From Acidimicrobiia bacterium (lineage in GTDB: Bacteria; Actinomycetota; Acidimicrobiia; Spongiisociales; UBA5794), in assembly GCA_026985095.1 (NCBI GenBank), contig JALSQW010000042.1:1-49119 (forward strand): 49,119 bases of DNA. The letters run 5' to 3'. Below are positions 8,957-34,240 of the stretch, one piece after another; within the stretch, counting starts at the first letter, position 1; the number at the start of each line of letters is the position of its first letter. The translations under genes and the position numbers were made by a program. The notes beneath the pieces are model-generated. The model was not told where the DNA came from. It did no database searches and worked only from the letters and a program-made list of their open reading frames with translations.

Positions 8957-9016
8957 CGTCATCCCGGCCGGCAACAGACCGTGACGAGACGCTATCGTAA
9001 GGGCGAACAACCGAGG

Positions 9017-9140
9017 CCCCCTTCAGGGCAGGGTGAAATCCCCGACCGGCGGTGACAGCCCGCGAACCCCTCGGCGACGAGGGGCCGATCCCGGTGGAAA
9101 CCCGGAGCCGACGGTGACAGTCCGGATGGGAGAAGGAGGG
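9017..9140 (+). promoter_or_regulatory. FMN riboswitch (RFN element) controlling the rib operon
   Basis: The conserved RFN core is present in order: CAGGGTGAAATCCCCGACCG, then GGTGACAGCCCGCGA, a variable hairpin (CCCCTCGGCGACGAGGGG), GGTGGAAACCCGGAGCCGAC and GGTGACAGTCCGGATGGGAG. The closing helix P1 pairs 9017-9024 (CCC plus CCTTC) with 9132-9140 (GAAGG, one bulged A, GGG). The 3' strand of P1 is itself the ribD Shine-Dalgarno sequence, so FMN binding should block translation directly. This matches the known family; the direct sequestration mode is my inference. Confidence 0.96.
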
Positions 9141-9143
9141 CGT

Positions 9144-28617: not shown

Positions 28618-30145
<1,528 letters not shown>

Positions 30146-30368
30146 CTAAGGAGCGATCGAGTGGTCGGGATCTCACCTGACCACGATGTTCCTCAGTGGA
30201 TCTGCATGGTTATTCGATCGACCGACGTCCGATGCTCGACATCGGACGCATGGCGGTCGGGCACGCTGTTCAGTCGTGAGGGAGTCCGGTGGGGCCGCAA
30301 GGCCCGACCGACCCGCTCACGCACCTTGAGAACTGCATAGCGAGCACGAGAGTCAAAGTATTCTCTCC
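30146..30368 (+). other. 16S-23S internal spacer without tRNA genes
   Basis: The 223-base spacer contains no recognisable tRNA (no TTCGANNCC arm with matching acceptor stem). It holds the 3' half of the 16S processing stem (30260-30274) and the 5' half of the 23S processing stem: CCTTGAG (30324-30330) and a 15-base segment at 30336-30350 complementary to 34083-34097, with the outer CTCAAGG at 34103-34109. Confidence 0.85.
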
Positions 30369-30601
30369 GTCCAAGCTACTACGAGTTGACGGTGGATGCC
30401 TTGGCGCTAGGAGCCGATGAAGGACGTGGCAGGCTGCGATAAGCCTCGGTGAGCTGTCAAGCAAGCGTTGACCCGGGGATGTCCGAATTGGGAAACCAGG
30501 CTGGGGTCATGCCCAGTCACTCCGGTCTGAACACATAGGACCGGGAGAGGGAACCGGGGGAATTGAAACATCTCAGTACCCCGAGGAAGAGAAAGCAACA
30601 G

Positions 30602-30645
<44 letters not shown>

Positions 30646-30908
30646 GACGTGGTGTGATAGCCCGATGGCGTTGCCATGTCGGTGTAGCGGGATCCTCCAG
30701 ACGGCGCATCGGAGCCGTCAGGGAGTAAGAAATCCATGGGATAGGCGAATCCTGCTGGAAAGCAGAGCCACAGGAGGTAACAGCCCCGTAGCCGAAATCC
30801 CGATGGACTCCCGGAGGCGATCCCAAGTAGCACGGGGCACGTGAAATCCCGTGTGAATCTGCGAGGACCACCTCGTAAGGCTAAATACATCCTAGCGACC
30901 GATAGCGG

Positions 30909-30942
<34 letters not shown>

Positions 30943-31504
30943 GGTGAGGGGAGTGAAACAGTACCTGAAACCGTCAACTTACAAGCAGTAGGAGGGATCC
31001 TTCGGGATCCTGACTGCCTGCCTTTTGAAGAATGAGCCGACGAGTTATCGATACGTGGCAAGGTTAAGCCGAGAGGTGTAGCCGCAGCGAAAGCGAGTCT
31101 GAATAGGGCGTCTAGTCGCGTGTCATAGACCCGAAGCCGAGTGATCTATCCATGGGCAGGGTGAAGCGAGGGTAAGACCTCGTGGAGGCCCGAACCCACC
31201 TAGGTTGAAAACTGGGGGGATGACCTGTGGATAGGGGTGAAAGGCCAAACAAACTCGGCGATAGCTGGTTCTCCCCGAAATAGCTTTAGGGCTAGCGTCG
31301 TGTGTTCCGCGTTGGGGGTAGAGCACTGATTGGGTTAGGGGGCCAACAAGCTTACCGACCCCAGTCAAACTCCGAATCCCAACGCGCCAAGCACGGCAGT
31401 CAGACCATGTGGGATAAGCTTCATGGTCGAAAGGGAAACAGCCCAGATCGCCAGCTAAGGCCCCCAAGTCAGGACTAAGTGGAGAACGAAGTGGAGTCGC
31501 CCAA

Positions 31505-31553
<49 letters not shown>

Positions 31554-32495
31554 CAGCTCACTGGTCGAGTGATTCCGCGCGGATGATGTAACGGGGCTCA
31601 AGTCCTGCGCCGAAGCTGCGGGATCCTGTCGACAACCCAGGCGATCACCTTCGGGAGGTCGTCCAGGGGACAGGATCGGTAGGGGAGCGTCGAACGGCCG
31701 CGGAAGTTGCGGCGAAAGCCAGTGATGGAGGCCGTTCGAGTGAGAATGTCGGCATGAGTAGCGAATGAGGAGTGAGAATCTCCTCCGCCGGATGTCCAAG
31801 GGTTCCTGGGGAAGGCTCGTCCGCCCAGGGTTAGTCGGGACCTAAGGCGAGGCCGAGAGGCGTAGTCGATGGACAACGGGTTGATATTCCCGTACCACTA
31901 TGCACGCGTCCAGGCCGAACCCAACTTGCTAAGGAAAGCCCTTCGGGGCCTACCGACCCAGTTGGTAGTAGGCCAGCAATGGAGTGACGCGGAAGGGTAA
32001 GCGGACCCGGGCGTTGGTTGACCCGGGGTAAGCGTGTAGGGCGGGGCCTAGGCAAATCCGGGCCCCATTGAAGCCTGAGGCGCGATGCCGAGCCGCGAGA
32101 GGCGAAGCCGCTGAACGCCCATGCCGCCGAGAAAAGCTTCTCGCGAGTGTGCATGGTGCCCGTACCCCAAACCGACACAGGTGGACAGGTAGAGAATACC
32201 AAGGCGAGCGAGATAACTCTGGTTAAGGAATTCGGCAAAATGGCTCCGTAACTTCGGGAGAAGGAGCGCCCCGGTAGGGTGTAGGACCTCGCGTCCGAAG
32301 CCCGAGGGGGTTGCAGAGACCTGGCCCAAGCGACTGTTTACTAAAAACACAGGAGCGTGCTAAGTCGCAAGACGACGTATACGCTCTGACGCCTGCCCGG
32401 TGCCGGAAGGTCAAGGGGATCGGTTAGCTCTTCGGAGCGAAGCTGTGAACCCAAGCCCCGGTAAACGGCGGCGGTAACTATAACCGTCCTAAGGT

Positions 32496-33102
32496 AAACG
32501 GCCCACGTCGCCACGTGGGCCACTGCCCCTCCGCGCGGCGACGCGCGTGAGTGCAGTCAGCTATATGCTGGAAACTCCGAGGATCCGTCGGTACTCGTTC
32601 GTGTCGTAGGTGCGCCCCGTACCGTGAGCGACATGAGCAGTGAAAACCCGTACGGTGCGGACAATCAGCAGGAAAGACCAGGGACCGAGCAGTGGATCGT
32701 CGGCTTCGTCGACGGTGAGGGTTGCTTCTCGATATCGGTGGTACGCGACGCGGGTGGCCGACTCGGCTGGCAGGTCCAGTACGAGAGCGGCGACCCGAGC
32801 TGCGTCCGCACGGCAGGCAGTCGAGGTGCTGGGACGGCACCTCGGATGCGGCTGGATCATCGAGAGGCTCCGACGGGACGACCACAGGGCACCGCTTCTG
32901 CGGTACTCCGTGAAGGCCCGCCGGGACCTCACGAGCGGATCATCCCGTTCTTCGAGGCGAATCCACTGAGCACCGCAACGTAGGACGACGTCCTAGCGGT
33001 CTCGATTCCTGGAATCCTCAGAGGCCATACGCTGACCATCTCGGTTCGACGGCCGAGATGAAGATATGGTCCGAGCCCCATGGCGACATGGGGACCAACT
33101 CG
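32496..33102 (+). ncRNA. Group I intron at 23S position L1931
   Basis: Self-splicing type intron of 607 nt. The 5' exon ends in U (32495) and the intron ends in G (33102), as the group I mechanism requires. Core landmarks: ATATGCTGGAAACTCCG (about 32562) and GGACAATCAGCAGGAAAG (about 32659), whose TGCTG and CAGCA can form P4; and the S element AAGATATGGTCC (33061-33072), whose GGTCC can pair with GGACC at about 32681 as P7. Perfect hairpins lie at 32500-32521 (near the 5' end), 33038-33061 (before the S element) and 33076-33093 (P9-like, with a GCGA tetraloop). The P1 guide pairing is only partly resolved (GGT with GCC at 32525). Wording suggests subgroup IB, as in organellar 23S introns. Confidence 0.93.
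32624..33032 (+). pseudogene. Frameshifted single-motif LAGLIDADG homing endonuclease remnant
   Basis: Starting at GTG 32624, the frame gives QWIVGFVDGEGCFSISV, the LAGLIDADG helix of a homing endonuclease. The family's continuation is then found in another frame (ARQAVEVLGRHLGCGWIIER, then LRYSVKARRDLT, about 32802-32935), and returns to the first frame as ERIIPFFEANPLSTA. Restoring one G at about 32936 joins DLT to ERII exactly. A TAG (32981-32983) then interrupts, and further family-like fragments (DDVLA, SRFLE, ILRGHTLT) lie in shifting frames to about 33032. At least two, probably four, single-base indels are present, so the gene is dead unless these are assembly errors. Its 5' codons overlap the ribozyme core. 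Confidence 0.85.
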
Positions 33103-33146
<44 letters not shown>

Positions 33147-33699
33147 CAACGACTTGGGCGCTGTCTCAACCAGAGACTCGGCGAAATTGCATTGTGAGTA
33201 AAGATGCTCACTTCCCGCGACAGGACGGAAAGACCCCGGGACCTTTACTGCAGCTTGGCATTGGAGTTCGTCATGTGATGTGTAGGATAGGTGGGAGGCT
33301 ATGAAGCGGCGACGCCAGTCGTCGTGGAGCCGCCCTTGAAATACCACCCTTCACATGATGGTCTTCTAACCTCGGTCCGTTATCCGGATCAGGAACAGTG
33401 CCTGGTGGGCAGTTTCACTGGGGTGGTGGCCTCCTAAAATGTAACGGAGGCGCCCAAAGGTTCCCTCAGTCTGGTCGGCAATCAGACGGCGAGTGCAAGG
33501 GCACAAGGGAGCTTGACTGCGAGACCTACGAGTCGAGCAGATTCGAAAGAAGGGCCTAGTGATCCCTCGGCGGCATGTGGGTGCGCCGAGGCCAACGGCT
33601 AAAAGGTACCCCGGGGATAACAGGCTTATCCTGCCCAAGAGTCCATATCGACGGCAGGGGTTGGCACCTCGATGTCGGCTCGTCTCATCCTGGGGCTGA

Positions 33700-33736
<37 letters not shown>

Positions 33737-33755
33737 AGGCACGCGAGCTGGGTTT

Positions 33756-33787
<32 letters not shown>

Positions 33788-33812
33788 TCGCGGGCGCAGG
33801 AGATTTGAGGAG

Positions 33813-33846
<34 letters not shown>

Positions 33847-33902
33847 TACCTCTGGTGTGCCAGTTGTCCTGCCAAGGGCACGGCTGGTTAGCTACGTACG
33901 GA

Positions 33903-33937
<35 letters not shown>

Positions 33938-34082
33938 GGCTCCAAGATGAGATCTCCCACCGGTATAGCCGGGTAAGGCCCCTGGTAGATGACCAGGTTG
34001 ATAGGCCGGAAGTGGAAGCGCAGCGATGCGTGAAGCTGACCGGTACTAATAGGCCGAGGGCTTGGACTTGAATACCGCGACA

Positions 34083-34121: not shown

Positions 34122-34240
<119 letters not shown>

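Follow-up and report, generated by a model that had tools for sequence, protein, structure and literature searches.

The 23S rRNA gene of an Acidimicrobiia bacterium is interrupted at site L1931 by a group I intron which carries the remains of a LAGLIDADG homing endonuclease gene. The intron spans 607 nt (positions 32496–33102, forward strand) of the window, i.e. the whole stretch of 49,119 nt analyzed here. We consider it very likely that this is a resident L1931 LAGLIDADG group I intron which splices while its endonuclease is dead, and which, in terms of the homing cycle, has thus reached the decay phase.

The window contains an rRNA operon composed of 16S (28618–30145), 23S (30369–34069, forward strand; Rfam RF02541, LSU_rRNA_bacteria, 2732.8 bits) and 5S (34124–34240) rRNA genes. 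ARAGORN found no tRNA gene in the window, hence none in the 16S–23S spacer (30146–30368); at a distance from the operon, an FMN riboswitch is located at 9015–9141 (93.2 bits). Within the 23S gene, the 607-base insert is flanked by CCTAAGGT, which ends at 32495, and AGCGAAATTCC, which starts at 33103. Alignment with E. coli 23S rRNA assigns the junction to positions 1931/1932 (the reference record exceeds the usual 2904 by one base, and one was subtracted from the raw value of 1933), which identifies the site as L1931. A U stands at the 5′ site and a G is the last base of the insert, so that the insertion point and the U…G boundaries proposed by a previous sequence-only reading are both borne out. 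The host genome assembly (G000; 2.93 Mb, 70 contigs, rated 100% complete) contains a single 23S match, with collapsed additional rRNA copies being possible in 70 contigs. Homologous introns are found at the same site in other genomes, which contradicts the insert being a chimera of one assembly.

The nature of the insert was assessed with a covariance model of the intron 3′ half (R1), from which the window was excluded. This model and its alignment (A1) contain 26 relatives out of 38 candidates, 11 having been left out for lack of the cutting motif and one (L018) since it had been wrongly cut. The model matches positions 33002–33112 of the window with 125 bits (E 4.9e-33, a roughly calibrated value), while the second-best match in the window reaches 11.5 bits; the 125-bit match is beyond chance. 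In alignment A1, 65 cells of P7, P8, P9.0 and P9 are changed on both sides of a pair, compared to 17.1 after shuffling (0 of 500 shuffles as high, although these do not preserve kinship among rows). Sliding the partner strand by one to three columns, a control which covered the 3′ half, decreased the paired cells from 90.9% to 33.5–47.5%. Similarly, the double changes observed in P2, P3, P5a, P5b, P8, P9.0, P9 and a stem in the P1 loop were matched in none of 300 shuffles, which likewise ignore kinship among rows. Compensatory changes are thus present in seven helices of the P1–P9 layout, whereas P1, P4, P5, P6 and P7 show little or no variation in the set of the 21 closest sequences and give no covariation signal there. 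These 21 cores, taken from 24 sequences after removal of L024, L093 and L080 (cutting motif missing), include near-copies (L054/L077 and L100/L101); the window core violates only two of the 94 pairs predicted by their computed fold.

Concerning the group I core, P3 and P8, as well as P7 in the wider set, show double changes, P4 is assigned by pairing only and P6 is tentative. In addition, the U preceding the 5′ splice site pairs with a guide G and the intron has a terminal G. Collectively, these data support the assignment of the insert to the group I introns at L1931, in agreement with the sequence-only reading. An intervening sequence, excised by RNases without re-joining and leaving the 23S rRNA in two pieces, is known from bacterial 23S genes such as that of Coxiella (PMC4990558); such an element would not account for a group I core with covariation, U and G boundaries and a site reported to be used by LAGLIDADG group I introns (PMC1995217; PMC11270868), and we regard this explanation as highly improbable.

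The search with the Rfam Intron_gpI model which had been suggested as a check returned a match in the intron (32953–33093, E 0.0013), its score of 23.1 bits being under the cut-off of 50. This low score is probably due to the gene located in P6, which splits the model. In fact, a gene-less relative of 298 nt (L046) reaches 63.5 bits, above the cut-off, while the gene-bearing introns of genomes G016 (L056) and G001 (L105) gave no Intron_gpI match up to E 0.1. It thus seems that the inserted gene, rather than the core, masks the family.

The predicted helices, all on the forward strand, begin with P1 (32493–32527), in which the 5′ exon end GGT (32493–32495) pairs with the internal guide GCC (32525–32527), placing a U·G pair at the splice site. 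P1 itself shows no variation and encloses an extra stem of 9 bp. By inspection, CT at 32523–32524, ahead of the guide, could form P10 with AG of the 3′ exon. P2 is a hairpin with a GCGA loop (32529–32551; 66 double-change cells compared to a mean of 17.9 over 300 shuffles). The P3 5′ strand GTCAGC (32556–32561) pairs with GCTGAC at 33031–33036 (11 double-change cells compared to 3.0); this form is shared by the window and the G016 intron, the commonest form being GCTGGC/GCCAGC, from which three of the six pairs differ on both sides. P4 is placed by pairing at 32566–32571/32665–32670, a helix invariant in the 21 sequences. P5 and its P5a/P5b extension occupy 32577–32660, with 19 double-change cells in P5a, nine in P5b and an invariant P5. 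The P5 complex and the core serve to recognize subgroup IC1, and the Synechococcus L1931 introns have been termed IC1-like (PMC1995217).

The P6 region (32671–33017), whose loop contains the endonuclease remnant, was tentatively assigned by inspection, with GG 32671–32672 pairing with CC 33016–33017 and AGACC 32675–32679 with GGTCT 32998–33002. The nested RNAalifold fold, which cannot represent the P3/P7 pseudoknot and puts P7 bases into P6, offers an alternative in which P6 pairs with 33025–33026 and P6a forms between 32675–32682 and 33008–33018. Downstream, the ribozyme 3′ half matched by model R1 (33002–33112) comprises J6/7, P7, the P3 3′ strand, P8, P9 and P9.0, along with 10 bases of the 3′ exon. 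P7 (33023–33071) is formed by GGCCAT 33023–33028 and ATGGTC 33066–33071 and contains P8 (33037–33044/33053–33060). In the 26-row set, one P7 pair changes from C–G to U–A in six rows, and the outermost pair toward P3 is unpaired in seven. Finally, positions 33072–33102 contain P9.0 (33072–33075/33099–33102, terminal G included) and the P9 hairpin with its GCGA loop (33076–33093); both this hairpin and the P7-like sequence had been recognized in the sequence-only reading.

The endonuclease remnant had been missed in that reading. A LAGLIDADG_1 match (32696–32785, E 1.8e-7, 32.4 bits for a cut-off of 23.1) lies in a frame extending from 32624 to 32983 and covers only positions 1–30 of the 102 of the model, while the remnant extends in other frames to about 32980. 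In comparison, the G016 intron contains an open frame of 207 codons (71.1 bits, positions 1–101 of 102) and the G007 intron matches at 72.6 bits (positions 2–101 of 102). Based on this match and on lesions relative to G016, we annotated a LAGLIDADG homing endonuclease pseudogene at 32633–32983 (forward strand), the choice of the ATG at 32633 as its start being a guess. According to the window/G016 alignment, from which all lesion positions derive, two nucleotides are missing after 32785 and one after 32931, a TAG stop codon is present at 32981–32983, and 101 nt are missing around 32992–32995, the gap being split in the alignment into two pieces by two matched bases. These four lesions (two frameshifts, a stop and a deletion) are all outside the predicted ribozyme helices. 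Identity with the G016 intron is 48/50 in the P3–P4 stretch, 103/108 in the 3′ core and 241/297 in the endonuclease region, a conservation of the core which is also expected between intact introns. Substitutions in the dead gene are distributed over the three codon positions as 19/10/27, with no clear difference from six pairs of open-frame introns, which indicates either that the decay is recent or that the test is weak. Inspection places the beginning of the gene in P5b, the P4 3′ strand and P6, and the end of the G016 gene passes through P7 into the P3 3′ strand; the Synechococcus L1917 intron is a described case of a gene continuing through the core (PMC1995217). The window intron, in which an intact endonuclease gene is absent, thus descends from the mobile L1931 LAGLIDADG kind and is no longer a mobile member of it.

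In the mechanism we propose, the core (P3–P8) would bind guanosine at P7 within the 23S precursor, and the guide GCC of P1 would hold the 5′ exon end GGU for a cut after U1931. P9.0 and P10 would then place the 3′ exon for a cut after the terminal G, and the exons would be joined to read CCTAAGGT-AGCGAAATT. The ancestral P6 loop would have encoded a single-motif LAGLIDADG homing endonuclease which cut intron-free 23S genes at L1931 and thereby spread the intron. Both splicing and this past activity are inferred. With the endonuclease dead and the RNA core kept, the intron would remain resident and spliced without spreading itself, selection on splicing presumably maintaining the core. Such a decay is consistent with the homing-cycle model (PMC1654191). 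No further LAGLIDADG_1 match than the remnant was found in the host genome up to E 1, and splicing, if it occurs, would thus be independent of that protein.

The absence of an intact LAGLIDADG_1 protein in the host could also be read as a sign that the intron is crippled, the endonuclease having been a required maturase and splicing having become poor or absent when the gene broke. A maturase-like LAGLIDADG protein has indeed been reported for the 23S intron of Thermotoga neapolitana (PMC3984707). Against this reading, the core pairs are retained and a single 23S match is present in a genome rated 100% complete, which, without splicing, would possess no uninterrupted 23S rRNA. Moreover, the single 23S match of genome G039 is likewise interrupted, by an intron of 499 nt whose frame is broken, and a search of that genome for LAGLIDADG_1 at E 0.001 gave no match. 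A crippled intron is thus very unlikely, and the hosts of the window and G039 introns, both lacking an intact LAGLIDADG_1 protein, offer a natural way to find out whether these ribozymes depend on that protein. That the endonuclease gene is in fact intact and its lesions are sequencing or assembly errors is barely credible: single-base errors are possible in an assembly of 70 contigs, but the lesions are four separate ones, including 101 missing nucleotides, and shortened L1931 introns (499, 500 and 566 nt) are found elsewhere in the order, which indicates that decay is common there.

This decayed intron can be compared to known L1931 systems. L1931 group I introns of 654–700 nt encoding LAGLIDADG proteins have been reported in Thermotoga, Synechococcus and Simkania (PMC1995217). 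According to this published description, on which the comparison is based rather than on sequences, they share with the window intron the site, a group I core and a single-motif LAGLIDADG gene (ancestral in the window), whereas the window intron differs by its pseudogene, its length of 607 nt and its actinobacterial host. In addition, a P2 hairpin is predicted in the window, while the Synechococcus L1917 and L1931 introns are described as lacking P2 (PMC1995217). In CPR bacteria, insertions at 1931 of the 23S gene with LAGLIDADG_1 have been described, along with ORF-less and degenerate copies (PMC11270868). These resemble the window intron in site and LAGLIDADG_1 domain, and their 3′ halves align with the actinobacterial ones in A1, in which the seven CPR rows differ by a much shorter P9 region. 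The closest intron found is that of G016 (L056/L099), which occupies the same site, is sister to the window intron in the intron tree and has 525 of 599 aligned bases identical; it differs by its length (710 nt) and its open LAGLIDADG frame. Among leading titles and abstract openings of the open-licence literature, no earlier report of L1931 introns in Actinomycetota was found, and the present data extend to this phylum a family already documented in Thermotoga, cyanobacteria, chlamydiae and CPR bacteria.

The histories of the introns and of their exons differ. The exons of the window and of the congeneric G001 are about 99% identical (1388/1400 upstream, without any mismatch in the nearest 353 bases, and 499/500 downstream), compared to 1350/1397 and 477/500 between the window and G016. 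Accordingly, the exon tree groups the window with G001 (support 100/99), G016 being their sister, and rejects a window + G016 clade (p-AU 5.6e-5). In contrast, the intron tree (29 rows) groups the window with its nearest kin, the actinobacterial G016 (100/99), and G001 with G007 (100/100), a 100/99 branch separating the two pairs, and rejects window + G001 (p-AU 0.0029). The clades were chosen for the AU test after the identities were known, so that these p-values are indicative, and in the intron tree 13 of the 24 inner branches have weak support, the deeper relations being left aside. The two trees are in conflict, and G001 carries the other L1931 intron lineage. It follows that either the window or the G001 intron was exchanged or gained after the two hosts split. 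The lateral acquisition from an organellar or bacterial donor suggested in the sequence-only reading is thus borne out in part, as an exchange within this pair, in which either member may have changed, while the sharing with G016 may be vertical. Nothing in the sequences compared points to an organellar donor. In the simplest reading, the window intron was inherited from an ancestor common with G016 and G001 changed, the opposite order being possible. One could go further and suppose that, in one genus whose 23S gene is found once per genome, L1931 holds two deep intron lineages, the ancestor having had the window/G016 type and G001 having replaced it, or lost and regained an intron, as the G007 type; this would represent natural turnover between close species and homing spread of introns devoid of a canonical terminal G, a scenario we judge plausible but somewhat short of an even chance.

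Several states of L1931 coexist within one family: G016 has an intact gene, the window a decayed one, G001 and G007 the other lineage, and G008 an empty site, with an intron at 1923 instead. The homing cycle can thereby be put to the test in free-living bacteria. For this site, the data do not support the view that group I introns are rare in bacterial rRNA genes. Genome contigs were scanned for the AAGATAT..TC motif followed by the 1931 exon within 14–44 bases, a strict procedure which misses the G001 intron and whose counts are lower bounds. Among the 96 stretches found, 81 are complete L1931 introns; the other 15 comprise eight with an uninterrupted 1931 exon, six without 5′ exon in the locus and L009, left out for its apparent length of 1539. 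The 81 introns include 21 labeled Actinomycetota, the rest being mostly from CPR groups; further labels include Omnitrophota, Chloroflexota and WOR-3, and some of the contigs are untyped. In the host's order, reading of the alignments revealed an insert at 1931 in at least 11 of 138 genomes (G000, G001, G007, G016, G039, G046, G074, whose contig contains the 3′ side alone, G082, G108, G110 and G119). The 3′-half model matches at some site in 18 of the 138 under stricter filters, by which weak matches are lost, and an uninterrupted 1931 exon is present in 18, the 23S gene being possibly unassembled in many others. Long 23S inserts of this type also have consequences for amplicon studies and assembly of rRNA operons.

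Other inserts were observed in the 23S genes of the order (loci L102, L103, L104, L106, L121, L126, L132, L133, L138, L139 and L140): under the stricter filters, those at 1923, 1931 and 2604 match the intron model and those at 1951 and 2593 do not. G082 and G108 have three intron-model matches each. One further locus (L141, G082:C19:19132–19230) gives a weak match of 35 bits, located upstream of the 23S gene at about 260 bases from its start, and may be an intron of the 16S gene or of the spacer. In G110, position 1931 is occupied by an insert on one of three contigs (C29, C96 and C135) and empty on the other two, which may reflect multiple rRNA copies or a bin of mixed content. The gene-less intron L046 is of the actinobacterial type, on a contig labeled Methylococcaceae; the 23S pieces of this contig are 83.7–88.2% similar to those of the window and 73.4–80.9% to those of E. 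coli. The intron may owe its place on this contig to a transfer or to wrong binning.

In another kind of L1931 intron, the gene stops shortly ahead of the P7 3′ strand, probably in the P8 loop; this kind was observed in L031, L008, L059, L005 and L095, on contigs labeled WOR-3, Chloroflexota, Acidobacteria, Kazan and Caldisericota. Finally, according to the exon alignment, the presumed 3′ end is an A (a C in one case) instead of the canonical G in 14 of the 81 L1931 introns, 12 of which bear CPR names. The title of a study cited in PMC11270868 refers to a Coxiella intron devoid of the terminal G. On the same exon alignment, the L105 (G001) and L102 (G007) introns also have a presumed terminal A in place of G.
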